NCBI RefSeq assembly: GCF_001006045.1
Contig: NZ_CP011267.1
Coordinates: forward strand, 930,001 to 994,000
Direction: 5' to 3'
DNA length: 64,000 bases
Source: Geoglobus ahangari
Lineage (GTDB): Archaea > Halobacteriota > Archaeoglobi > Archaeoglobales > Archaeoglobaceae
The notes beneath the pieces were generated by a model. That model did not search any database. It saw only the letters and a list, made by a program, of their open reading frames with translations, and was not told the origin of the DNA. The translations under genes were made by a program, and so were the position numbers. Shown here piece after piece: positions 1,848 to 38,963 of the stretch (positions are counted from its first letter, which is position 1; each line of letters starts with the position of its first letter).

Positions 1848-3554
1848 TTACTTCCCGACCTCCTTCTCCCTCAGCACCCTCCTCAGTATCTTCCCCACAG
1901 CAGATTTGGGCAGCTCATCCACAAACTCTATCAGCCTCGGCACCTTGTAGGCAGCAAGCCTCTCCCTGCAGAACTTCTCGATCTCCTTCTCGTCCACCTT
2001 GCCTTTATACTCCTCCTTCAGCACGATGAACGCCTTGACCGTCTCCCCTCTGTACTTGTCAGGGACACCAATCACCGCGCACTCCAGCACAGCAGGATGC
2101 TCATACAGAACCTCCTCAACCTCCCTCGGATAGATGTTGTACCCACCCGCAATTATCACATCCTTCTTCCTGTCCACTATGTAGAAGTACCCATCCTCAT
2201 CCATCTTCGCCATGTCTCCTGTGAGAAGCCACCCGTTCACGAGTGTCTTCTTCGTCTCCTCCTCCATCTTGTAGTACCCCTTCATCACCTGCGGGCCGTA
2301 AATTGCAAGCTCTCCCACTTCTCCAACCGGGAGGATCTTGCCCTCCTCGTCTATGACCACAGCATACGTGTTCGGTATCGGCAGTCCGATGCTTCCCTCC
2401 CTGTTCTCCCCGTATATCGGATTGACGTGGGTGACGGGAGAGGACTCGCTCAAACCGTAGCCCTCGACGAGCTTTCCGCCCGTTATCCTCTCGAACTCCC
2501 TCTTCACCTCGAGCGGGAGAGGGGCTGAGCCTGAGATGCATGCCCTTATGCTCGTCAGATCCTTCTTAGGCGTGTCGGGGTGCGTGTTTATTGCATTAAA
2601 GAGTGTTGGGACGCCGAAGAATAGGGTTATGCGGTGCTTCTCGATAGCGTTCAGGATCCTCTTGATGTCTCTCGGGTCTGGAAGCATGACCATCTTTGCT
2701 CCCACAGCGATTGGCATGTTCATGCTCGTCGTCATGCCGTAAACGTGGAAGTATGGCAGAATTCCGCTCACAACGTCCTTCTCGCTGAATCCGGGAAGCC
2801 ACGGGATTATCTGGTAGGTGTTGGCAACGAGGTTGTAGTGGGTGAGCATCGCGGCCTTTGGCAGTCCTGTGGTTCCGCCGGTGTACTGGAACACCGCCAC
2901 ATCCTCCTTCGGGTTGACCTTCTCGGGGCTTGATATCGGCTCGGCCTTCAAAAAGTCGTTCCAGAACAGTATCCCGTCCTCCTCGGGAATCTCGACCTTC
3001 TCCTTCTTGAACTTGTACAGGAAGTTCAGGGGGAACGGGAGGTAGTCCTCAATCCTGCATACGATGATCCTGTCTACAAGCCCCTCCTTCTTGAGCTGGT
3101 ACACCTTCGGAAACGCGTTCTCTACTGCAAAGAATATCCTCGCCTCGCTGTTCTCCGCTATGTGCCTCAATTCTCTTTCAGTGTAGAGCGGGTTGGCCTG
3201 AACCACTGTTGCGCCAGTCTTGAGTATTCCGTAGTAGGCTATGACGTAGTGGGGCGTGTTTGGCATGTCTATGACTACCCTCGACCCCTTTCCGACTCCG
3301 AGGCTCTTCAGGAATCCCGCCACCCTGTCAGAGAGCTCCTTCAGCTTCCCATACTTCAACCTCTTGCCGAGAAAGTCTATGGCTATCTTGTCCGGCAGCC
3401 TTTTTGCAGTCCTGTCGAGAAGCTCGTAGAGCGGGATCTCTGGGATCTCCACGTTCTCTGGTACGCCGTCGTCGTAGTGCTTCGTCCAGAACCTGTTGAT
3501 CTCCTCTGGCTTTATTTCCGTGATAAGCTTACCCTCAACTCCAAGCATATCCAT
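1848..3554 (-). CDS. fadD: Long-chain fatty acid--CoA ligase (AMP-forming)
   Basis: The 568-residue product is a full-length adenylate-forming enzyme. It has the P-loop-like motif YTGGTTGLPKAAM near residue 225, the GYGLSESSPV acyl-adenylate motif, GWLLTGDMA, and the C-terminal lysine motif PKSAVGKILRR. Length and motif order match FadD-type ligases, which activate fatty acids to acyl-CoA for beta-oxidation; Archaeoglobales encode many such paralogues. The chain-length preference cannot be read from the sequence. The gene is preceded by an AT-rich stretch and is separated from its neighbours by 80-90 bp, which suggests its own promoter. Confidence 0.9.
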   Translation of the reverse strand: MDMLGVEGKLITEIKPEEINRFWTKHYDDGVPENVEIPEIPLYELLDRTAKRLPDKIAIDFLGKRLKYGKLKELSDRVAGFLKSLGVGKGSRVVIDMPNTPHYVIAYYGILKTGATVVQANPLYTERELRHIAENSEARIFFAVENAFPKVYQLKKEGLVDRIIVCRIEDYLPFPLNFLYKFKKEKVEIPEEDGILFWNDFLKAEPISSPEKVNPKEDVAVFQYTGGTTGLPKAAMLTHYNLVANTYQIIPWLPGFSEKDVVSGILPYFHVYGMTTSMNMPIAVGAKMVMLPDPRDIKRILNAIEKHRITLFFGVPTLFNAINTHPDTPKKDLTSIRACISGSAPLPLEVKREFERITGGKLVEGYGLSESSPVTHVNPIYGENREGSIGLPIPNTYAVVIDEEGKILPVGEVGELAIYGPQVMKGYYKMEEETKKTLVNGWLLTGDMAKMDEDGYFYIVDRKKDVIIAGGYNIYPREVEEVLYEHPAVLECAVIGVPDKYRGETVKAFIVLKEEYKGKVDEKEIEKFCRERLAAYKVPRLIEFVDELPKSAVGKILRRVLREKEVGK

Positions 3555-27168: not shown

Positions 27169-28389
27169 ATGCCGGTGACCTGTGCTGGATGTTCGTGTCT
27201 TTGTGACGACATAGAGGTTAAGGTTGAGGGGGACAGGATAACCCACGTACTGCATGCATGCAGGAGGGGGGCCGGGATATTCCTGAACCACCAGTCCTCG
27301 AGGGCCAAGCCCAAGGTCGATGGCAGGGAGGTGGACTTTGACTCGGCAATCGAGAGGGCTCAGGAGCTGATAAAGGAGTCGGAGAACCTCGCGATCTACG
27401 GCCTCGACACGACAACCCTCGAGGCCCAGAAGCTCGCCATAGAGCTCGCTGAGAAGAAGGGAGCTTACATTGACGACAACTCGACGTTCTGCCTCGGAGA
27501 CTTCGTGGAGATGGTTCTCAGGGGTGAGCTGCCCAGCACGACCCTTGAGGAGGTGAAGAACAACGCCTACGTGATCGTCTACTGGGGCGTTGATCCCTAC
27601 CACAGCCTCTCGAGGCACATGTCCCGCTACACCTACTACCCGAGGGGGGGGAAGAGGCAGCGCGGATACGAGGAGGACAGGTTCCTGGTGGTGATAGACG
27701 TCAGGAAGACCCACACAGCGAAGCTCGCCAAGAAGAACGCCAGGTTCTTCGAGGTCAAGGACGACCTTGAGATAATCGAAGCTTTCAGTCAGGCGCTCGA
27801 GGGGAAGGCTCCGAAGATCTACGCAAACGACATCCCGAGAGTCCTGAAGGAGATGGAGAAGGCCGACTTCAACGTAATATTCGGGGGGCTCGGGCTGAAG
27901 TACGGGCTGAAGGGAAACTACGAGCCGTTCAAGGAGCTTGTGAGGAAGATGAACGAGAAGACGAGCGTGTACTTCATTCCGGCCGGCTGCCACCCGAACA
28001 TGAGGGGCTTCAACGAGCTAATGTTCGAGAAGACGGGGAGCATAAACAAGTACAGCTTCAGGGAGCAGAAGTCCTCCGAGGACTATGCGTTCTACAGGCT
28101 CCTTGAGAGCGAGTCGATAGACACTGCCATAGTGATCGGCACAGACCCCCTGAACTCGCTGCCGTTTGAGTATGCGAAGAAGCTCGCTAAGATCAACACC
28201 ATCGTCATCGACCCGCGCGTCACCTTCACGGGAGAGGTGGCCAAGGTCGTGATTCCATCGGCGATAGCCGGCGTTGAGGCTGGTGGTACAATGGTTAGAA
28301 GCGACGGGGTCAGGGTGGAGCTGAAGCCTGTGTTTGAAAGCGAGGTCAATGACGAGACGATCCTCAGGAAGCTTCTGGAGGTGGTGTGA
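27169..28389 (+). CDS. fwdB: Formylmethanofuran dehydrogenase subunit B paralogue (molybdopterin/tungstopterin)
   Basis: The 406-residue protein has the N-terminal [4Fe-4S] motif CAGCSCLC (residues 5-12) and HACRRGAG, and the molybdopterin-binding body with YWGVDPYHSLSRH and IGTDPLNSLP. The predicted metal-ligand cysteine is C108 in STFCLGD. The residue after it is Leu, whereas the second FwdB here (49196) has Cys-His as in formate dehydrogenases. Either its chemistry is altered or it serves another complex. The ATG at 27169 is chosen with CTGGAGGG 6 nt upstream; ATG 27163 overlaps the previous stop but is too close to that site. Confidence 0.85.
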   Translation: MPVTCAGCSCLCDDIEVKVEGDRITHVLHACRRGAGIFLNHQSSRAKPKVDGREVDFDSAIERAQELIKESENLAIYGLDTTTLEAQKLAIELAEKKGAYIDDNSTFCLGDFVEMVLRGELPSTTLEEVKNNAYVIVYWGVDPYHSLSRHMSRYTYYPRGGKRQRGYEEDRFLVVIDVRKTHTAKLAKKNARFFEVKDDLEIIEAFSQALEGKAPKIYANDIPRVLKEMEKADFNVIFGGLGLKYGLKGNYEPFKELVRKMNEKTSVYFIPAGCHPNMRGFNELMFEKTGSINKYSFREQKSSEDYAFYRLLESESIDTAIVIGTDPLNSLPFEYAKKLAKINTIVIDPRVTFTGEVAKVVIPSAIAGVEAGGTMVRSDGVRVELKPVFESEVNDETILRKLLEVV

Positions 28390-28788
28390 ATGCCGTTGCA
28401 GTTTTCCAAGTTTCTGAAGAAGATCACCGTCGAAGTCGTCGTTGCGAGGTCGAGCTTTCAGGTTGAGGCGATGGACAAGGGCAAGTTCACGGACGAGTAC
28501 GTGGAGAAGTCTGCGGTCATCTACTTCACCGAGGAGTTCGCCAAGAGCAACGGGCTGAAAGAGGGCGATGTTGTGAGGGTGACGAGGGCCGGGAGGAGCG
28601 TGAACGTGAAGGTGGCGATCTCAGATGTCGCCCCCAGCAGCGGAGCGTTTATGCCCAACAGCATCTACACCTCCTACCTGACAGACTTCGACAGCTTCAA
28701 GCGGTTCGAGGCATCGATCGAGCCCGTCAGTGGAGGTAGTGTTACCAAACCGGAAGAAATTATGCAGATAGTGTTAAACGATTCTTAA
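28390..28788 (+). CDS. fwdD: Formylmethanofuran dehydrogenase subunit D paralogue
   Basis: The 132-residue molybdopterin-dinucleotide-binding domain resembles FwdD, with YFTEEFAKSNGLKEGDVVRV and APSSGAFMPNSIY, the latter aligning with the FIPMGPYAN region of the second FwdD at 50453. It starts directly after the fwdB stop (TGAATG). The two would form the catalytic BD pair. The genes for subunits A and C are missing from this locus, so this pair either shares the A and C of the second cluster or works in a different complex. Confidence 0.83.
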   Translation: MPLQFSKFLKKITVEVVVARSSFQVEAMDKGKFTDEYVEKSAVIYFTEEFAKSNGLKEGDVVRVTRAGRSVNVKVAISDVAPSSGAFMPNSIYTSYLTDFDSFKRFEASIEPVSGGSVTKPEEIMQIVLNDS

Positions 28789-28871
28789 TTTATTATTAAT
28801 GCTGCGAAAAATAGGTAATGTTTTATAGTTGTATAGAGCGGAGTTTAATTCAAATGGAGGGTCGAGAAACG

Positions 28872-28890
28872 CCCGAAACGAATATATACT
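28872..28890 (+). promoter_or_regulatory. Predicted BRE/TATA promoter of the cdh operon
   Basis: CCCGAAACGAATATATACT combines a BRE-like GAAA stretch with a clear TATA element (ATATATAC). Transcription would begin near 28912-28916, giving a leader of about 30 nt with the AGGTGG ribosome-binding site at 28931-28936 before cdhA. Confidence 0.55.
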
Positions 28891-28942
28891 TTGGAGTTAA
28901 AAATAACGGAAATATGGTTTTCGGTTTAAGAGGTGGTATGGT

Positions 28943-31354
28943 ATGGCATTCGAACTGAAAAAAGGTTTGTTCGCAATCGACGAGATGCGGAACGTTAGCA
29001 TAAAAATAGGGAAGGTAATTGACGAGGCAGAGGAATGGGACGAGCCGATGGGGCCAACGCCAAAGCCCGGAATACTTGAGCTGAGGAAGTGGGACCACAA
29101 GCTGCTCGACAGGTTTGAGCCGTTCTACGCCCCGATGTCTGACTACTGCAACCTCTGTACGATGGGGCCGTGCGATCTTTCAATGAACAAGAGGGGCGCG
29201 TGTGGTATTGACCTGAAGACCGCGAAGGCCAGACTCGTCACAATTGCGTGCTGTATTGGTGCTTCCGCGCACACGGCTCATGCGAGGCACCTCCTCGATC
29301 ACCTGATTGAGGAGTACGGTGAGGATACCCCGATTGATCTTGGCCCGGACGTGAATGTTGAGGCGCCCAACATAAGGACGGTAATTGGAATAAGGCCCAG
29401 AACCCTCGGAGACCTCAGAGAGGCCCTCGACTGGGCTGAGAAGGAGATCGTAAAGGTTCTCCACTCCGTGCACATCGGAAACGAGGAGAGCTACATCGAC
29501 TACGAGAGCAAGGCCCTGCACGTCAGCATGGCGGACCACATCGGAATGGAGGTCGCGGACATCGCCCAGATTGTCGCGTTCAACCTGCCCAAGGCTGAGC
29601 CGGACACGCCTCTTGTGGACACGGGCTTTGGAATAATAGACAAGAACAAGCCCGTCATCGTTGTTGTTGGCCACAACGTGATGTACTCCAGGCCGATAAT
29701 GGAGTATCTGGAGGAGCAGGGCAGGATTGACGACTTTGAGATCGCCGGCCTCTGCTGCACCGCGCATGACATGACGAGGGTGAACGCTAAAACCAAGATC
29801 TTCGGACCGCTCAGCTACGAGCTCAGGGTTATAAGATCAGGTCTGCCTGATGTGATGGTCAGCGATGAGCAGTGCATCAGGGCGGACCTGCTCGAGGCGT
29901 GCAAGGCTGTCGGCATTCCACTCATAGCCACGAGCGATGCTGCGGTAAGGGGACTGCCGGACGTCAGCGACTGGCCGGTTGACAAGATTGTTGATGCCCT
30001 TGTCAGCGGGAAGCTTCCGGGTGTGTTCCTGCCCGATCCTGAGAAGGTCGGACAGGTCGCGCCGCTTGTTGCAGAGGCGATGTTCAAGAAGCACGGTGGA
30101 GACAGGAAGTACAGGTTCTTCGCCACCGAGGAGGACATGTGGAACGAGATCAACAAGTGTACGCAGTGCATGAACTGTGTGTTCACCTGCCCGCACAACC
30201 TGAGGATCGACCAGGGAATGGCGCACGCCCAGAAGACCAAGGACCTCAGCAAGCTCGCCGACCTCCAGGAGAGGTGCATCTCGTGCGGCAAGTGTGAGCA
30301 GGCGTGTCCGAAGAACATCAAGATCATAAACGTGATAATGTCCGCCGGATTCGATCAGCTCTACAACAGGACCGGCAAGACGAGGGTCGGAAGGGGCCCA
30401 GTGCAGGACACCGAAATCAGGAACGTCGGTCAGCCGATCGTCATGGGTCAGATTCCGGGTGTGATTGCGGCAGTTGGATGCCCCAACTACCCGGACTACG
30501 CGAGCGACCTGAAGGTAATCCTCGAGGAGTTCCTCAGGAGGAAGTACATCGTCGTCACCTCCGGATGTCACGCGATGGAAATCGGCATGACCAAGGACGA
30601 GGACGGTCAGACCCTCTACGAGAAGTACTCGGGAAGCTTCGATGCAGGCGGCCTCGTCAACGTGGGTAGCTGTGTCTCCAACAGCCACATAAGCGGTGCG
30701 GCGATAAAGATCGCCAGCATATTCGCCATGAGGCCGCTGAGGGGCAACTACGCCGAGATCGCCGACTACGTCTTCAACAGAGTTGGTGCGGTCGGATTCA
30801 GCTGGGGACCGTACAGCCACAAGGCTGCGAGCATCGCAACGGGGTTCAACAGGCTCGGAGTGCCTGTGGTTGTTGGACCGCACGGCACCAAGTACAGGAG
30901 GGCGTACATCGGCAGGTACTACAAGCCGGAGGAGTGGTGGGTGTACGACATCAAGACCAAGAGCAAAGTGAACATCGAGCCCGCTCCGGACTCACTGCTG
31001 GTTGCCGTCGAGACCAAGGAGGAGGCCATAGTCCAGCTGGCGAGGCTCGCCATAAGGCCGAACGACACGAGCCTCGGAAGGCAGATCAAGCTGACCCACT
31101 ATCTGGAGCTCAGCCAGAAGTACCTTGGTGCGCTGCCTGACGACTGGTACCTCTACGTCAGGAGCGAGGCCGATCTGCCGCTGAAGATGAAGGACGAGCT
31201 GCTCCACATACTCGAGAGCGAGTACGGCTGGAAGATCGACTGGAGCAAGAAGAAGATCCTTGAGGGACCGATCAGGGGCTTTGATGCTGGATTCAACCCG
31301 ACGCTCGTTGAGGAGGTTTACGAGAAGTATGCGGGCGAAAAGCCCCCACAGTAA
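28943..31354 (+). CDS. cdhA: CO dehydrogenase/acetyl-CoA synthase, alpha subunit
   Basis: The 803-residue Ni-Fe CO dehydrogenase has the N-terminal B/D-cluster ligands CNLCTMGPC (residues 69-77) and two ferredoxin-type motifs at about 406 and 444 (CTQCMNCVFTC, CISCGKCEQAC). C-cluster cysteines follow in AVGCPNY, VVTSGCHAME and NVGSCVSNSH. It oxidises CO or reduces CO2 in the acetyl-CoA decarbonylase/synthase complex. It opens a tightly packed operon. The ATG at 28943 follows AGGTGG at a 6-nt spacing; an ATG 5 nt earlier is out of frame. Confidence 0.96.
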   Translation: MAFELKKGLFAIDEMRNVSIKIGKVIDEAEEWDEPMGPTPKPGILELRKWDHKLLDRFEPFYAPMSDYCNLCTMGPCDLSMNKRGACGIDLKTAKARLVTIACCIGASAHTAHARHLLDHLIEEYGEDTPIDLGPDVNVEAPNIRTVIGIRPRTLGDLREALDWAEKEIVKVLHSVHIGNEESYIDYESKALHVSMADHIGMEVADIAQIVAFNLPKAEPDTPLVDTGFGIIDKNKPVIVVVGHNVMYSRPIMEYLEEQGRIDDFEIAGLCCTAHDMTRVNAKTKIFGPLSYELRVIRSGLPDVMVSDEQCIRADLLEACKAVGIPLIATSDAAVRGLPDVSDWPVDKIVDALVSGKLPGVFLPDPEKVGQVAPLVAEAMFKKHGGDRKYRFFATEEDMWNEINKCTQCMNCVFTCPHNLRIDQGMAHAQKTKDLSKLADLQERCISCGKCEQACPKNIKIINVIMSAGFDQLYNRTGKTRVGRGPVQDTEIRNVGQPIVMGQIPGVIAAVGCPNYPDYASDLKVILEEFLRRKYIVVTSGCHAMEIGMTKDEDGQTLYEKYSGSFDAGGLVNVGSCVSNSHISGAAIKIASIFAMRPLRGNYAEIADYVFNRVGAVGFSWGPYSHKAASIATGFNRLGVPVVVGPHGTKYRRAYIGRYYKPEEWWVYDIKTKSKVNIEPAPDSLLVAVETKEEAIVQLARLAIRPNDTSLGRQIKLTHYLELSQKYLGALPDDWYLYVRSEADLPLKMKDELLHILESEYGWKIDWSKKKILEGPIRGFDAGFNPTLVEEVYEKYAGEKPPQ

Positions 31355-31375
31355 ATTTTTTCGGAGGTGTAACTG

Positions 31376-31921
31376 ATGGCGGTTAAGAAGGAGGAGAAGT
31401 ATCCCGTGGCAAGAAGGTATCAGGTTGCAGACATTCAGGTAAGCAGGGACGCCACGCCCGTAAAGCCGAGCGTGGTTGTAAATCTGGTCAAGAAGGCCAA
31501 GCACCCCGTGCTCGTCACGGGTGGAAAGCTGCTCAAGGAGGAGAAGCTTGTAGAGTACGCGGTGAAGTTCTACGAGAAGGGCATTCCAATAATCGCCACT
31601 GGCGGATCGAGCAAGCCCCTCATTGAGAGGGGTGTGAAGCCCCAGTCCATAGTGTTCCCGCTGCACTACGTGACCCAGTTCATGCTCGACGAGGAGTGGC
31701 AGGGCTTTGATGGCAAGGGCAACTACGACGTCGTGCTCTACCTCGGCTTCCTGCCCTACTACCTCTCCAGAATGCTCTCTGCCCTGAAGCACTTCTCGAA
31801 GATAACGACGATAAGCCTCGACGAGTTCTATCAGCCTCATGCGAAGTTCAGCTTCACGAACCTTACCGCAAATAAGGAGATGCACTATCAGATGCTTGAG
31901 GAGGTTTTGAACGGTCTTTAG
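31376..31921 (+). CDS. cdhB: CO dehydrogenase/acetyl-CoA synthase, epsilon subunit
   Basis: The 181-residue protein has a Rossmann-like (DHS-type) fold: KKAKHPVLVTGGKLLKEEKLVEYA and IIATGGSSKPLIERG. This is the epsilon subunit that binds the alpha subunit in the CODH component; it has no known catalysis. A GGAGGTGT ribosome-binding site lies at 31363-31370. It ends 14 nt before cdhC, with the cdhC ribosome-binding site directly after its stop codon. Confidence 0.94.
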   Translation: MAVKKEEKYPVARRYQVADIQVSRDATPVKPSVVVNLVKKAKHPVLVTGGKLLKEEKLVEYAVKFYEKGIPIIATGGSSKPLIERGVKPQSIVFPLHYVTQFMLDEEWQGFDGKGNYDVVLYLGFLPYYLSRMLSALKHFSKITTISLDEFYQPHAKFSFTNLTANKEMHYQMLEEVLNGL

Positions 31922-31935
31922 AGGAGGTGATTATG

Positions 31936-33519
31936 ATGGTTGAGAGGAAGAGGATTGAGATTCCGGAAGGTGCTAAGATTAAGGAGAGCGTTGGTGAGGA
32001 GGCAGAGTTTCCGTTTGACATCTCCCCGATGTACGAGGGAGAGAGGGTCAGGAAGGGCGACATGTACGTAGAGCTTGGCGGCACGTCCCAGCCGGGCTTC
32101 GAGCTCGTTCTTGCCCTGCCGGAGGATCAGGTAGAGGACATGAAGGTCACGCTCGTCGGCCCGGACCTCGACGAGATGGAGGAGGGCAAGGCCTATCCGT
32201 ACGCGATGATCTACTACATCGCCGGCAGCCAGGTGGAGCAGGACCTCGAGCCTGTGATTGAGAGGAGGAACCACGACTTCCAGAACTACATCGAGGGCTA
32301 CATGCACCTGAACCAGAGATACGACATCTGGATCAGGATCAGCAAGGGTGCCGTGAAGAAGGGCCTCAAGAGTCTCATTCAGATCGCCAAGGCCACGATG
32401 ATGCTCTTCAAGAACGAGCTTCCGTTCATCGAGAAGATCGAGGCCGTTTACATAACCGACAAGGATCTCGTCGAAAAGGTGCTCAACGAGGTCGCGATGC
32501 CGATCTACGATGAGAGAGACGCGAGGGTTGAGAGCCTGCACGACGAGGATGTGGACGAGTTCTACTCATGCACGCTCTGCCAAAGCTTCGCTCCAACGAA
32601 CGTCTGCGTCGTCAGCCCTGACAGGCCATCTCTCTGCGGTGCCATAAGCTGGTTCGACGGCAGGGCTGCGGCGAGGGTTGACCCGGAGGGACCGAACAAG
32701 GCCATTCCGAAGGGCGACGTCATTGATCCGATTGGCGGAGAGTACTCCGGAGTTAACGAGTTCGCCAAGGAGGAGAGCGGTGGAGAGTACGACAGGATAA
32801 AGCTCCACAGCTTCTTCGAGTACCCGCACACCTCGTGCGGATGCTTCGAGGTCATCGGCTTCTACATGCCAGAGGTTGACGGAATTGGCTGGGTCCACAG
32901 AGGATATCCCGAGCCGGCACCTAACGGGCTCACCTTCTCGACGATGGCCGGGCAGACCGGTGGAGGAAAGCAGGTCATCGGTTTCTTGGGCATCGGTATA
33001 AGCTACTTCAGGAGCAAGAAGTTCATACAGGCCGACGGTGGCTGGTACAGGACCGTCTGGATGCCAAAGGATCTCAAGCAGAGGGTCGAGAAGTACATAC
33101 CCGAGGACGTCAGGGACAAGATCGCAACCGAGGAGGAGGCGAGGACGATCGAAGAACTCAAGGAGTTCCTGAAGAAGGTCAACCACCCCGTCGTTACTGG
33201 TGTTGTGAGGCCGGTTGACGGCAAGAAGATCACCGAGGGATGGGTTGAGGAAGAGGAGGAGGCCGAGGAAGAGGCCGTCGCTGAGGAGGCTGCGGTCGAG
33301 GAGGCACCAGCTGCTGCAGAGCAGCCAGCAGTCCAGCAGGTGCAGCCAGCCCAGATGGCAATGCCGATGCAGATGCCACAGCTTCCAGCGTTCCAGATGC
33401 CGCAGATTCAGGTTCCGGCCCAGCCAGCCACTGCTGGAATAAAGCTGATAATCAAGGACGCCAAGATCTACATCGACAAGGTCATAGTGAAGAGCGAGGA
33501 GAAGAAGGGTGGAAAGTAA
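31936..33519 (+). CDS. cdhC: Acetyl-CoA decarbonylase/synthase, beta subunit
   Basis: The 527-residue acetyl-CoA synthase carries A-cluster ligands CTLCQSFAPTNVC (from about residue 213) and the proximal nickel motif SCGCFE (CGC near residue 302). It joins methyl, CO and CoA. After residue 435 comes a long acidic then Ala/Pro/Gln/Met-rich linker, and the chain ends in a separate strand-like tail, IKLIIKDAKIYIDKVIV. The downstream 33-aa ORF repeats this tail. ATG 31936 is preferred to ATG 31933 and GTG 31927 by spacing from GGAGGTG. Confidence 0.95.
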   Translation: MVERKRIEIPEGAKIKESVGEEAEFPFDISPMYEGERVRKGDMYVELGGTSQPGFELVLALPEDQVEDMKVTLVGPDLDEMEEGKAYPYAMIYYIAGSQVEQDLEPVIERRNHDFQNYIEGYMHLNQRYDIWIRISKGAVKKGLKSLIQIAKATMMLFKNELPFIEKIEAVYITDKDLVEKVLNEVAMPIYDERDARVESLHDEDVDEFYSCTLCQSFAPTNVCVVSPDRPSLCGAISWFDGRAAARVDPEGPNKAIPKGDVIDPIGGEYSGVNEFAKEESGGEYDRIKLHSFFEYPHTSCGCFEVIGFYMPEVDGIGWVHRGYPEPAPNGLTFSTMAGQTGGGKQVIGFLGIGISYFRSKKFIQADGGWYRTVWMPKDLKQRVEKYIPEDVRDKIATEEEARTIEELKEFLKKVNHPVVTGVVRPVDGKKITEGWVEEEEEAEEEAVAEEAAVEEAPAAAEQPAVQQVQPAQMAMPMQMPQLPAFQMPQIQVPAQPATAGIKLIIKDAKIYIDKVIVKSEEKKGGK

Positions 33520-33620
33520 TGGCGGAGAAGGAGAAGAAGAAGCAGGAGGAGCCAAAATTTATTAAAATCACCCTTAAGGGCGCGGAAATCAGAATAAGCG
33601 AGATGATAATTGAGGAGTAG
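33519..33620 (+). CDS. 33-residue ORF resembling the CdhC C-terminal tail
   Basis: The ATG overlaps the last base of the cdhC stop (TAATG) and the frame ends with TAG at 33618, 2 bp before cooC. The product has a Lys/Glu-rich start and the core FIKITLKGAEIRISEMIIEE. This aligns without gaps to the CdhC tail GIKLIIKDAKIYIDKVIVKS: Ile-Lys, then Lys, Ala, Ile and Ile at matching positions, with conservative changes elsewhere. Operon position, tight junctions and similarity to the adjacent gene argue that it is translated. A role as a docking or assembly peptide for the ACS complex is inference. Confidence 0.7.
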   Translation: MAEKEKKKQEEPKFIKITLKGAEIRISEMIIEE

Positions 33621-33622
33621 CC

Positions 33623-34405
33623 ATGACAGTAGTTGCAGTGACTGGCAAGGGAGGAACGGGCAAGACCATACTTTCCGCCCTTTTAATCCATTTTATTTCT
33701 CAGAGAACTACCAGCGTGCTTGCCGTTGATGCAGACCCTGACAGCAATCTTCCAGATGCGCTTGGAGTTGCCGAGCTGGTGGAGAAGACGCTCGGCGACA
33801 TCAGAGAGGTTTTTCAGGTAAGCAGGGACGAGATGGGGTCAACCAACAAGGAGCAGTGGCTCGAGGGGAAGATCTACGGAGAGGCGATATGCGAGTGCGA
33901 CACCTTCGACCTGATAGTCATGGGAAGGCCTGAGGGCGAGGGTTGCTACTGTTATGCTAACAACCTTCTGAGGGGCGTGCTCAGGAGGTTGATGAGGCAC
34001 TACGACTACATAATCATCGACAGCGAGGCCGGACTGGAGCACTTCAGCAGGAAGACCATAGACAGCGCGGACTACATAATCGTGGTTACTGACATGTCCA
34101 AGAAGGGGCTTGCAACTGCAAAGAGGATAAAGGAGCTGAGTGAGGAGCTGGATCTTGGCTTCAAGGACATTTTCCTCGTGGGGAACAGGATAGCCAACAA
34201 GGAGGCTGAAGACGTGATACGGAGGTTTGCAGACGAGATAGGGATGAAGGTCCTCGACTTCCTGCCCTACGACGAAACGATTGCTGAGCTCGACCTCAGG
34301 GGTGAGCCGGTGATAAACCTACCCGAGACCTCTGAGTACTACCAGAAGGCCAAGAAAATTGCCGATATGATTGTTGAGCTTCATGCTGAGTCCGTTACTA
34401 AATAA
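33623..34405 (+). CDS. cooC: CooC-type nickel-insertion ATPase for CODH/ACS
   Basis: The 260-residue MinD/ParA-like ATPase has the deviant P-loop GKGGTGKT (residues 7-14), AVDADPDSNLPDAL, and GEGCYCY with Cys108 and Cys110. The C-x-C pair binds metal at the dimer interface in CooC proteins. It matures the nickel centres of CODH and possibly of ACS. It sits inside the cdh operon, directly after the 33-aa ORF. Confidence 0.93.
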   Translation: MTVVAVTGKGGTGKTILSALLIHFISQRTTSVLAVDADPDSNLPDALGVAELVEKTLGDIREVFQVSRDEMGSTNKEQWLEGKIYGEAICECDTFDLIVMGRPEGEGCYCYANNLLRGVLRRLMRHYDYIIIDSEAGLEHFSRKTIDSADYIIVVTDMSKKGLATAKRIKELSEELDLGFKDIFLVGNRIANKEAEDVIRRFADEIGMKVLDFLPYDETIAELDLRGEPVINLPETSEYYQKAKKIADMIVELHAESVTK

Positions 34406-34422
34406 TTTTTGGAGGTGTGGAG

Positions 34423-35814
34423 ATGGCAAAGAAGTTCACGCTTGAGGAATTTTTTGAGACGCTGAAGAAGTACAATGTGGAGGAGCTTGAAGGGGTAAGA
34501 ATCGAAGGAGACCTCGAAATTGAGGTTGAACCCGGTAGCGGTGTTGACGCGAACCTGATTCAGGCCCTTGCGGCTCTGGCAGGATACACGCAGCTCATTC
34601 AGGAGTTTGGAAACTTCATATACCACACGAACATGGCTCTGACGTATCTGCAGAGACTATCTGCCGCTCTCGGAATCCAGATGCCGCTTGGAGCACCAGC
34701 GATTCAGCAGCCCGCTGCAGTTCAGCCAGCGGTTCCTGAGGCAAAGCCGCTTGAAGTGCCCAAGTTCAAGATCCCCGAGAAGCTGATAGAGGCGAAGTTC
34801 GAGCCGTACAAGGCCGAGTACCCGGGCGTCATAGAGGAGGTCACCCTCGGTGCCACGAAGGCTGACGGGGGCACGAGAGAGACGACCGTGACCATCGGCG
34901 GAGAGAGGAGCCTTGCGTTCTACCTCTTCGACGCCGAGAATCCGAACATGCCCGTGGTCGCCATTGACATCTTCGACAGGAGGCCAATGCTCGCGAAAGC
35001 GGTCAGAGAGCACTACGAGGACGTGCTTGACGACCCGGCAGAGTGGGCGAGGAAGGCGGTGAAGGACTTTGGCGCAGATCTCGTGACGCTGCACCTCATC
35101 AGCACCGACCCGCTGCTCGAAGACACTCCCGCGAGTGAGGCGGTGAAGGTTGTTGAGGAGGTTCTGCAGGCTGTCAAGGTTCCGCTCATCATCGGAGGTT
35201 CAGGAAACAAGGAGAAGGATCCGGAGGTTCTTGAGAAGGCTGCCGAGGTTGCTGAGGGCGAGAGGGTCATGCTCGCCAGCGCAACCCTCGACATGGACTG
35301 GGAGAGGATCGGCAACGCTGCGAAGAAGTATGGCCACGTCATTCTGAGCTGGACCCAGATGGACATCAACAACCAGAAGACCCTCAACAGGTATCTGCTC
35401 AAGAGGGTTGGGATAGACAGGAACAGCCTCGTCATGGATCCGACAACCGCAGCTCTTGGCTACGGCCTTGACTACGCGTTCACCAACATGGAGAGAATCA
35501 GGATCTCTGGCTTGAGGGGCGATCAGGACCTCAACTTCCCGATATCGAGCGGTACGACCAATGCCTGGGGTGCGAGAGAGGCATGGATGATCGACTCGCC
35601 GATAGAGGGAGACACACCGTGGGGTCCGAGGGAGCTGAGAGGTCCGATCTGGGAGATTGTGACAGGAATGACCCTTGCTCTTGCCGGAGTGGACCTCTTC
35701 ATGATGATGCACCCCGGAGCTGTTGCCGTGCTCAAGGAGTGGATGGGCATGCTCTACGGCACGATAAAGGACAGCATAGACAACGTTGATGACTGGATAA
35801 CGATGGAGGTGTGA
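34423..35814 (+). CDS. cdhD: Acetyl-CoA decarbonylase/synthase, delta subunit (corrinoid protein)
   Basis: The 463-residue small subunit of the corrinoid/iron-sulfur protein has an N-terminal helical region with VEELEGVRIEGDLEIEVE, a Pro/Gln-rich hinge (about residues 88-115) and a TIM-barrel C-terminal domain (DPTTAALGYGLDYAFTNMERIR). With CdhE it carries the methyl group between tetrahydrosarcinapterin-type carrier and ACS. The ATG at 34423 lies 5 nt after GGAGGTG; the GTG at 34417 overlaps that site and is rejected. Confidence 0.94.
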   Translation: MAKKFTLEEFFETLKKYNVEELEGVRIEGDLEIEVEPGSGVDANLIQALAALAGYTQLIQEFGNFIYHTNMALTYLQRLSAALGIQMPLGAPAIQQPAAVQPAVPEAKPLEVPKFKIPEKLIEAKFEPYKAEYPGVIEEVTLGATKADGGTRETTVTIGGERSLAFYLFDAENPNMPVVAIDIFDRRPMLAKAVREHYEDVLDDPAEWARKAVKDFGADLVTLHLISTDPLLEDTPASEAVKVVEEVLQAVKVPLIIGGSGNKEKDPEVLEKAAEVAEGERVMLASATLDMDWERIGNAAKKYGHVILSWTQMDINNQKTLNRYLLKRVGIDRNSLVMDPTTAALGYGLDYAFTNMERIRISGLRGDQDLNFPISSGTTNAWGAREAWMIDSPIEGDTPWGPRELRGPIWEIVTGMTLALAGVDLFMMMHPGAVAVLKEWMGMLYGTIKDSIDNVDDWITMEV

Positions 35815-35818
35815 TGAG

Positions 35819-37237
35819 ATGAAGGTAAAGAGCCCGCTTGAGGTTTACAAGTTCCTTCCGCAGACGAACTGCGGTGAGTGTGGCTACGACACGTGCATGA
35901 GCTTTGCAGCCCAGATCATTGACAGGAACGTGAAGCCAACGGATTGCCCGCCGCTCGTCGAGAACGCCAAGAAGGACAAGAAGTTCGAGAAGAAGCTCAA
36001 AGAGCTGATCGCCCTCACCTCACCGGAGATCGCCGAGGTAATCATAGGTGTTGGCGACAACGCGGTCAAGATCGGTGGAGAGGACGTCCTCCACAGGCAC
36101 GAGCTCACTTACTTCAACCCGACCGCCTTCTTCTTCGACGTCTGGGACACGATGGATGAGGCCCAGATTGACGAGAGGTGCAGCAGGGTCGTCGAGTACA
36201 GGAAGTTCTACGTCGGTGACTTCATAACCCTCGAGGGAATTGCGGTAAGATGCACATCCAACGACCCGGAGAAGTTCAGGAAGGCCGTGAAGAAGGTTGC
36301 AGAGTATGGAAAGCCCATGATCCTCGTGGCCCTCAATCCCGAGTGCATGAGGGCTGCGCTCGAGGAGGTTGCCGATCAGAGGCCGCTGATATACGCTGCA
36401 ACAAAGGACAACTGGAGGGAGTTCCTTGAACTTGCGCTCGAGTTCAAGGTTCCCGTAACACTGAGGAGCAAGGATCTCAACACGCTGAAGAGCATGGCCA
36501 AGACATTCAAGGAGAGCGGGGTGAGCGACATAGTCCTCGACCCTGTCACAGAGCCTGTTGGTGAAGGGCTGAAAGCGACGTTTGAGAGGGTCGTGCAGCT
36601 CAGGAGGACTGCAATCCTCGGCGAAGATAAGGATGTGGCCTATCCGATAATGATCACGCCCATAGCCGCGTGGCTGATTGACGGAGATGAGGTGACGAAG
36701 GGATACTGGGAGACGGTCATAGCAGCAACGTTCATAGTCAAGTATGCCGACGTTATGATCTTCAGGAACCTCGAGCAGTACACTGTCATGCCCTCCGTTA
36801 TCCTGAGGTACAACATCTACACCGACCCCAGAACCCCGGTTCAGGTCGAGCCCGGCCTCAGGGAGATCAACAACCCCGGCCCGGACGATCCGGTGTTCAT
36901 CACCACAAACTTCGCCCTCACCTACTATACAGTTGAGAGCGATCTGACGAGCAACAACATCAAGGGATGGCTGCTCGTCCTCGACACAGAGGGTCTGGGA
37001 GTTGAGGTCAGCGTTGCTGGTGGACAGTTCACCGCAGCGAAGGTCAAGGACCTGATCAAGGAGACTGGCGTGGAGGAGAAGGTCAACCACAGGTACCTGA
37101 TAATCCCCGGACTTGCTGCGAGGCTTCAGGGTGCGATAGAGGACGAGACGGGCTGGACCGTGCTGGTTGGCCCGATGGACTCCGGAAGGATCAAGGGCTG
37201 GCTGGAGAAGCAGTGGCCGCCCAAGTCAAAGGAGTAG
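35819..37237 (+). CDS. cdhE: Acetyl-CoA decarbonylase/synthase, gamma subunit (corrinoid protein)
   Basis: The 472-residue large CFeSP subunit has an N-terminal [4Fe-4S] module, TNCGECGYDTCMSFA (residues 16-30) with CPP near residue 43. A TIM barrel and a C-terminal cobalamin-binding domain with GLGVEVSVAGGQFTA follow. It is the electron entry and corrinoid site for methyl transfer. Its N-terminal module is homologous to that of the ferredoxin at 26696. GGAGGTGTGA, spanning the cdhD stop, is its ribosome-binding site. Confidence 0.95.
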   Translation: MKVKSPLEVYKFLPQTNCGECGYDTCMSFAAQIIDRNVKPTDCPPLVENAKKDKKFEKKLKELIALTSPEIAEVIIGVGDNAVKIGGEDVLHRHELTYFNPTAFFFDVWDTMDEAQIDERCSRVVEYRKFYVGDFITLEGIAVRCTSNDPEKFRKAVKKVAEYGKPMILVALNPECMRAALEEVADQRPLIYAATKDNWREFLELALEFKVPVTLRSKDLNTLKSMAKTFKESGVSDIVLDPVTEPVGEGLKATFERVVQLRRTAILGEDKDVAYPIMITPIAAWLIDGDEVTKGYWETVIAATFIVKYADVMIFRNLEQYTVMPSVILRYNIYTDPRTPVQVEPGLREINNPGPDDPVFITTNFALTYYTVESDLTSNNIKGWLLVLDTEGLGVEVSVAGGQFTAAKVKDLIKETGVEEKVNHRYLIIPGLAARLQGAIEDETGWTVLVGPMDSGRIKGWLEKQWPPKSKE

Positions 37238-37248
37238 CTTTATAAAGT
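37238..37248 (+). promoter_or_regulatory. Predicted TATA box for thrC
   Basis: CTTTATAAAG lies about 25 nt upstream of the thrC ATG and directly after the cdhE stop, with no ribosome-binding site in between. This spacing predicts a leaderless thrC transcript. The T-runs at 37251-37266 may also end cdh transcription. Confidence 0.5.
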
Positions 37249-37267
37249 TCTCTTTTTTCCACTTTTT

Positions 37268-38425
37268 ATGTATCTTCTTCGGTGCATCGAGTGTGGGGAG
37301 AATTTTGAGAACGAGCTGATCTACACCTGTCCCAAATGTGGTGGGCTCCTTGAGGTCGTTTTTGATGTCAGCAACGCGGACTTCAGGCTCGACGGAAACA
37401 ACGTCACGCTCTGGAAGTATCGAAGCCTGCTGCCCGTCAGGATAGAACCCGTAACCCTGTTTGAGGGTGGAACACCTCTGTATCCCGTTGATGTTGATGT
37501 CGATGCAAGAGTTTTTGTCAAGCACGAGGGTCTGAATCCCTCGGGGTCGTTCAAGGACAGGGGGATGACCGTTGGCGTGACTAAGGCGCTGGAGCTTGGG
37601 ATGAAGAGCGTTGCCTGCGCGTCGACAGGGAACACCTCCGCGTCCATGGCAATGTACTCTGCGAGAGCCGGGCTAAGGGCGTATGTCCTGCTCCCCTCCG
37701 GCAAGGTTGCTCTCGGAAAGCTCGCGCAGGCGATGATGCACGGGGCAAGGGTTATAGCGATCAGGGGAAATTTTGATGTGGCTCTGAAGCTCGTGAGAGA
37801 GATCAGTGAGAGGAAGGGTCTTTATCTGCTGAACTCAGTCAACCCTTTCAGGCTCGAGGGGCAGAAGACGATTGCGTTCGAGATAGTCGATCAGCTCGGT
37901 CATGCCCCTGATGCGGTCTTCGTGCCCGTTGGGAATGCAGGGAACATCTCCGCGATCTACAAGGGGTTCTTGGAGCTGAGGGAGGCGGGATACATTGATG
38001 AGATCCCGAAAATGATCGGGGTGCAGGCGGAGGGTGCTAACCCCATATACAGGGCATTTGTTGAGGGAAAGGACAGCATCGAGCCGGTCGAGAACCCCGA
38101 GACAATCGCCACGGCCATAAGGATTGGTGCACCCGTAAACGCGAGAAAAGCTCTCAGAGCCGTTTACTCCTCAAAGGGGAAGGTGCTTCAGGTGAGCGAT
38201 GAGGAGATCGTCAGTGCTCAGAAGATGCTCGCAAAGCAGGGCATAGGCGTGGAGCCTGCAAGCGCGTCGAGCCTCGCGGGCCTTCTCAAGGAGGACTCCG
38301 ACTTCGATACGGTCGTCTGCATAGCAACAGGAAACCTGCTGAAGGATCCCGAGGAGGTCATGAGGGTTTCAGGAACGCCGGTGGAGGTTGACGCGAACAT
38401 CAGCGAGATAGAAAGGCTGATCTGA
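37268..38425 (+). CDS. thrC: Threonine synthase
   Basis: The 385-residue PLP enzyme begins with a zinc-ribbon-like CIECGENFENELIYTCPKCGG, then the PLP-lysine motif NPSGSFKDRG near residue 95 and the phosphate-binding GNAGNISA near residue 225. This is the archaeal/plant-type enzyme that converts O-phosphohomoserine to threonine. The C-terminus overlaps the convergent taw3 by 26 bp. Confidence 0.92.
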   Translation: MYLLRCIECGENFENELIYTCPKCGGLLEVVFDVSNADFRLDGNNVTLWKYRSLLPVRIEPVTLFEGGTPLYPVDVDVDARVFVKHEGLNPSGSFKDRGMTVGVTKALELGMKSVACASTGNTSASMAMYSARAGLRAYVLLPSGKVALGKLAQAMMHGARVIAIRGNFDVALKLVREISERKGLYLLNSVNPFRLEGQKTIAFEIVDQLGHAPDAVFVPVGNAGNISAIYKGFLELREAGYIDEIPKMIGVQAEGANPIYRAFVEGKDSIEPVENPETIATAIRIGAPVNARKALRAVYSSKGKVLQVSDEEIVSAQKMLAKQGIGVEPASASSLAGLLKEDSDFDTVVCIATGNLLKDPEEVMRVSGTPVEVDANISEIERLI

Positions 38426-38963
38426 ACTCATCTTCGAACCTCCTAAACCTTTCCCTGCTCTTCTTCAGCTTGTCCACGCTCTCCCTGAAATTCTCCACCA
38501 GAACCCTCTCATCGGCGATGATCTCCCCGTTTCTCGCGACCAGAAACTCCACCCTCTCCTGACCCGCTATCTCCACAACGTTTTTCTTGCCAGAGATCAC
38601 TCCTGCCCTCCTGAATCCTGCTCGTTTGCAGACGTCAAGAAGCCTGAAGGCAATCTCGGGATCTCTGCAGGCCACATGGATTATGGGAGGGTTCATCATG
38701 AACCACACCTCCCCCCTCCCGGCGCTGATTGCCCTCACAACCTCCTGAAATGGCGGAGGGCTGTGCCACTTTCCGAGGAAAACTGAGCCCTTTTTGTCTC
38801 CAAACTCTGGCATGTCCATAACTGCAATCCTCCCAGCGCAGCTTGATAGCGTGACGAAGTCCTCGCTGGAGTTTATGGTGTCGGTTATCTGCCTGATCCA
38901 CTGGTCAATCTCCGCGCTCGCGTACTCCTGAAGTCTCCTCCTCCTGAACTCCTCCCACCTCAT
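38400..38963 (-). CDS. taw3: tRNA wybutosine-pathway methyltransferase, TYW3-like
   Basis: The 187-residue protein contains the TYW3 signature TLSSCAGRIAVMD (about residues 37-49), KWHSPPPFQEV, and FMMNPPIIHVACRD. The family methylates N4 of the wyosine intermediate at tRNA-Phe position 37. Together with Taw2 at 10607 it shows that this organism makes a wyosine derivative. It overlaps the MBL hydrolase upstream by 4 bp and thrC at its 3' end. Confidence 0.92.
   Translation of the reverse strand: MRWEEFRRRRLQEYASAEIDQWIRQITDTINSSEDFVTLSSCAGRIAVMDMPEFGDKKGSVFLGKWHSPPPFQEVVRAISAGRGEVWFMMNPPIIHVACRDPEIAFRLLDVCKRAGFRRAGVISGKKNVVEIAGQERVEFLVARNGEIIADERVLVENFRESVDKLKKSRERFRRFEDEFRSAFLSR

Follow-up and report, generated by a model that had tools for sequence, protein, structure and literature searches.

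Between cdhC and cooC in the ACDS operon of Geoglobus ahangari there is a short gene (33519..33620, + strand, in the window, by which we mean the whole 64,000-nucleotide stretch of DNA that was analyzed) whose place, start and reading frame are kept among relatives under strong purifying selection, and whose product is homologous to the C-terminal tail of CdhC. From comparison of sequences, we lean toward the view that this product is a small sixth subunit of ACDS, adding one untethered docking strand, and such a free strand would probably help to hold the giant ACDS complex together. The first-pass annotation was right in kind when it took the open reading frame for a free copy of the CdhC tail, a reading for which homology, synteny and purifying selection give good support; the docking role it gave the copy is plausible, so that its interpretation as a whole is partly supported.

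A small, probably coupled gene in the ACDS operon

The G. ahangari ACDS operon has six large genes, all on the + strand: cdhA (28943-31354), the first; cdhB (31376-31921); cdhC (31927..33519), which encodes the ACDS beta subunit, or acetyl-CoA synthase, and matches TIGR00316, PF03598 and PF19436; a gene for a cooC-like P-loop ATPase (33623..34405), with matches to PF01656 and related entries; cdhD (34417-35814); and cdhE (35819-37237), the last of the genes we consider here. Judging from its family, the cooC-like ATPase is presumably of the nickel-insertion type. The small ORF (smORF) between cdhC and cooC has 33 codons and a TAG stop (MAEKEKKKQEEPKFIKITLKGAEIRISEMIIEE). The cdhC stop codon and the smORF ATG overlap by one base in a TAATG junction, and two bases separate the smORF stop from the ATG of cooC; the ORF and both junctions are thus exactly as they were first described. 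According to the genome paper, the complex is encoded by six locus tags, GAH_01139-01144 (PMC4600277). As six tags account for the six large genes, we infer that smORF is apparently missing from the published G. ahangari annotation, and for that annotation the earlier suggestion that gene callers had missed it is supported.

A Shine-Dalgarno-like site for smORF, GGGTGG (33507..33512, +), lies in the last codons of cdhC, and most versions of smORF have a purine-rich GGTG, GGAG or GGAGG within the final cdhC codons. At the other end, the last two glutamate codons of smORF, GAGGAG (33612..33617, +), probably serve as the Shine-Dalgarno site of cooC as well, and in other genera the sequence at this site is GAGGAAGAAGAA. 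The smORF is best read as a translationally coupled gene, and because its end overlaps the cooC Shine-Dalgarno site, that acidic end may be kept partly for the sake of cooC. A search for structured RNA gave no Rfam match in 28000-38500, and a scan built for bacterial promoters found no internal promoter or terminator near smORF on the + strand.

Searching 60 relatives with the 33-residue query gave matches in 24 genomes, the strong ones sitting between cdhC and cooC, and a profile search of 55 genomes of the family, joined with the locus tables, placed smORF in nine genera (g1, g4, part of g6, g7-g11 and g13). We considered 32 distinct versions, which come from most genera of the Archaeoglobaceae and all lie at the same site, and start, stop and position are conserved among them. 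All 32 begin with ATG, at a distance from the cdhC stop that ranges from a 4-base overlap to a 9-base gap (-4 to +9), while length varies across lineages from 22 to 43 residues. Wherever cdhC is on the same contig, smORF is flanked by cdhC and cooC and so lies inside the cdh operon. One Geoglobus-like metagenome assembly contains two different cdhC-smORF-cooC sets (G004:C68 and G004:C24; L002 and L025), which represent either a second operon or a mixed bin.

Selection was assessed on 17 core codons in 15 non-overlapping, independent pairs of smORFs. In these codons pS is 0.59 and pN 0.09, for a pooled pN/pS of 0.15 (Fisher p 4e-40), whereas the other two frames of the same DNA give pN/pS of 1.15 and 1.76. 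After correction dN/dS is about 0.08, and a value below 1 was among the signs that the first-pass annotation had named as support; the ATG and the place are kept in all 32 versions. Purifying selection together with synteny rules out a chance ORF. The relative frame of cdhC and smORF takes all three values (22, 7 and 3 of the 32 versions), so that smORF is a separate cistron and no frameshift extension of cdhC.

The product itself is unlike any family in the libraries we searched, since no entry of Pfam, NCBIfam or the PDB matches it; BBIP10, considered as a possible family, was matched by a single member only (E 0.11) and was rejected as spurious. The A2 and A3 catalytic domains with the A-cluster ligands, the hallmark of CdhC, are absent from the 33 residues, and AlphaFold2, given smORF alone, assigns it no secondary structure (pLDDT 72, pTM 0.17).

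The CdhC tail and other ACDS termini

The conserved core of smORF (FIKITLKGAEIRISEMIIEE, residues 14-33; 33558..33617, +) is homologous to the C-terminal tail of CdhC, whose motif (AGIKLIIKDAKIYIDKVIVK..., 33433..33507, +), located by a CdhC-tail profile in a search of the whole genome, is the presumed parent of the copy. As the first-pass annotation had claimed, the match is gapless: IKITLKGAEIRISEMIIE aligns with IKLIIKDAKIYIDKVIVK of the CdhC tail over 18 columns at 39% identity. When a profile of 26 small ORFs was compared with one of 105 CdhC ends (hhalign), the probability was 96% with E 2.5e-9, by far the top result among the 66 pairs of ACDS termini compared, and none of 300 column shuffles was as good (score 35.8, against a shuffle maximum of 17.4).

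Searches of the genome point the same way. A profile built only from CdhC tails, and containing no smORF, was run in six frames against the whole 1,770,093-bp genome of G. ahangari and recovered the CdhC tail (E 3e-11) and smORF (E 0.002), with nothing further up to E 0.5, and the smORF profile, run against the whole genome, recovered smORF, followed by the CdhC tail (E 0.0024) and no other match. In a set of 46,114 ORFs, drawn from the window and 122 cdh loci, all matches to the smORF profile with E < 1 are either small ORFs or tails of CdhC. The window smORF taken alone matches the CdhC-tail model weakly in this set (E 3.4, not significant); it is through orthologues such as those of genus g8 (KFKIILKDAKIYIEKVRFEEE), for which E is 2.9e-6, that the link is made.

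The tail motif, [IV]K[IL]x[LI]K[NDG]AxIxI, is present in smORF. Compared with the archaeal CdhC C-terminal extension (TIGR00316; residues 398-472 in M. thermophila), smORF has the same ungapped, homologous 18-residue motif and is encoded in the same operon, adjacent to cdhC, but it is free-standing, without the catalytic body and without the flexible linker, being a separate cistron in varying frames; it also has a glycine in the turn and, in most lineages, an end that is acidic where that of the tail is basic.

The tail motif occurs in nearly all archaeal CdhC proteins examined, and bacterial ACS is without the tail. In the window CdhC, the tail is carried by a flexible linker rich in Glu, Ala, Pro and Gln (33250..33441, +), with AlphaFold2 pLDDT < 50 at residues 442-449 and 454-505. 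This model, based on an alignment of 50 sequences, has a confident core and is disordered at residues 454-505; the tail is predicted with somewhat higher confidence than the linker and is not packed as a strand on its own core. The last 75 residues (398-472) of M. thermophila CdhC are not visible in cryo-EM and their function has been called unknown (PMC11474084); in the earlier work as it is cited in that paper, limited proteolysis or detergent treatment frees a truncated beta subunit. The sole convincing match of the CdhC-tail profile in the PDB, chain 9c0s residues 447-471, falls inside this structurally invisible part of CdhC. At two loci, L046 (oriented 2927-3172) and L049 (oriented 2862-3053), the tail is encoded separately as a small protein, which suggests that the CdhC tail can work in trans. 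In place of the tail, the CdhC proteins of L046 and L049 have a short terminal extension that is helical and may resemble a winged helix.

A motif resembling the CdhC tail is also found at the N-terminus of CdhA (IDEMRNVSIKIGKVI; 28976..29020, +). The comparison of the CdhC tail (IKIILKNAKISIDKIII) with the CdhA N-terminus (for example FSIEELENVQINIGKIV) ranked second of the 66 pairs (hhalign E 2.4e-4), with none of 300 column shuffles as good, over a similarity that is short, about 12-17 columns. The CdhA model, used to search the ORFs, gave five matches other than CdhA, of which the first and the third were CdhC tails (E 1.1 and 1.9). The CdhA N-termini of the window and of L056-L135 have the CdhC-tail-like motif L-[EK]-N-V-x-I-x-I-G-K-[IV]-[IV]. 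In the structure from an ethanotroph, CdhA residues 1-30 are not visible, and the authors propose that they stabilize other ACDS subunits (PMC11493965). The smORF is like this N-terminal extension in having a similar L-[EK]-[NG]-[VA]-x-I-x-I motif followed by acidic charge, and the CdhA end is flexible in structures; it is unlike it in that the CdhA end is covalently part of CODH and in that its sequence link to CdhA runs only through the CdhC tail. A direct link between smORF and CdhA was considered and is not significant, 9 of 300 shuffles being as good. The mean charge after the motif is -2.6 in most smORFs, -2.8 at the CdhA end and +2.2 in the CdhC tail, although the smORF end in genus g6 is basic where most are acidic.

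The archaeal-specific N-terminal extension of CdhD, with which the bacterial CFeSP small subunit is not equipped, contains a motif (LEGVRIEGDLEIEVE; 34486..34530, +) with weak similarity to the CdhA motif only; this similarity is marginal (hhalign E 1.3e-3, 2 of 300 shuffles as good), and a control pair scores about equally. The CdhD N-terminus was rejected both as a direct relative of smORF (123 of 300 shuffles as good) and as a direct relative of the CdhC tail (29 of 300). Free-standing ORFs for the CdhD N-terminal domain occur at nine loci, eight of 71-108 residues (L130:4214, L121:10235, L123:10240, L098:6895, L126:10181, L015:1258, L017:2389 and L046:4054) and one of 39 residues (L049:3078). 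They are found in several archaea that are not related to one another, the hosts including some Methanosarcinales, ethane-oxidising archaea and Archaeoglobaceae, and lie either near cooC or just upstream of a full-length cdhD. Like smORF, they are stand-alone copies of an archaeal-specific ACDS terminal extension adjoining the parent gene; the CdhD module differs in being larger and having helices, and homology between it and smORF was not detected. Because the CdhD N-terminal domain is also found free-standing, the occurrence of ACDS terminal modules as free copies is a recurring pattern.

Probable origin and losses in the Archaeoglobaceae

The smORF most likely arose once, near the base of the Archaeoglobaceae, when part of cdhC, its 3' end, was duplicated in tandem. 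On a tree of the CdhC core, in which support values are moderate, the presence of smORF takes 5 changes, against 21.7 when the labels are shuffled. The most economical reading is that the family gained smORF once, at its base, and lost it about four times, in g3 (which we take to be the A. fulgidus clade), g5, g12 and part of g6; the sister family in the order, f2, is without smORF. About four losses imply that smORF is not essential to every ACDS.

Possible roles of the product

We propose that the complex is assembled by the flexible ends of ACDS subunits, acting as docking strands, and that smORF would supply this docking structure with an extra strand that is untethered. As smORF is on the same mRNA as cdhC and has an overlapping start, its product would be made beside fresh CdhC. 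It is acidic like the CdhA end while the CdhC tail is basic, suggesting that the smORF strand may pair with the tail of CdhC in the way expected of the CdhA N-terminus. Of the docking strand described in the first-pass annotation, the copying is well supported and the docking is plausible, given a tail that is flexible in cryo-EM, undocked in AlphaFold2 and split off in two lineages, and a motif that recurs at the CdhA N-terminus. Large redox complexes, such as the respiratory complexes, have small supernumerary accessory subunits, and these are likewise tiny, non-catalytic proteins presumed to stabilize assembly; there is no homology between them and smORF, and the likeness is one of presumed role only.

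A free copy of the tail might instead sit where the CdhC tail docks, with no ACS subunit attached to it, and so limit the number of tethered CdhC subunits or end the growth of the complex. The smORF is, after all, a tail that lacks the catalytic body, its sequence is close to that of the CdhC tail, and the nearest orthologues, those of g8, are almost identical to a CdhC tail. We nevertheless consider this unlikely, because most smORFs have diverged from the tail in a consistent manner, with G for D/N in the turn, SEM or PEL for DKV, and the acidic end, and consistent divergence speaks for a site of its own and against mimicry. It is also possible to picture smORF as a tail-like adaptor by which the CooC ATPase is recruited to CdhC or CdhA to insert nickel, as smORF is always directly upstream of cooC and its stop often overlaps the cooC start. 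Such an adaptor is doubtful indeed, since g3, g5 and the order-level outgroups have CooC without smORF in the same gene order, and since smORF, a homologue of the CdhC tail, was seen to have no feature related to CooC.

We give very little credence to the idea that smORF is a translational device whose main job is to hand ribosomes on from cdhC to cooC and to determine the cooC level, with a product that does nothing: the coupling is indeed tight on both sides, and the final codons contain the cooC Shine-Dalgarno site, but the amino acids are conserved while synonymous sites are free, genomes without smORF couple cdhC straight to cooC, and the homology to the tail would be left unexplained. 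A programmed frameshift or readthrough that adds a second tail motif to CdhC, with no separate protein, is the least credible reading, for although smORF is adjacent to cdhC and homologous to its tail, and at L032 (about 3000-3078) lies in the same frame with a single TGA between, so that readthrough would give a double tail, all three relative frames occur across the genera and smORF always has its own ATG.

The proposal of a docking strand in a sixth subunit can be extended to a broader one, which we offer tentatively and would not ourselves favor over its negation. The N-terminus of CdhA, the C-terminus of CdhC and the N-terminus of CdhD may all carry one ancestral strand motif and together form an intermolecular beta hub that holds archaeal ACDS; by duplicating the end of CdhC, the Archaeoglobaceae would then have evolved a free strand of 22-43 residues as a sixth subunit, and other archaea would have done likewise with the end of CdhD, or by splitting off the CdhC tail.

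Since nature provides a free copy of the tail, and some lineages have the tail split off from CdhC, what the CdhC end does can be put to a direct test with a short synthetic peptide. ACDS is among the oldest CO2-fixing enzymes, and smORF would add to it a small subunit that is new to the Pfam and NCBIfam libraries searched.
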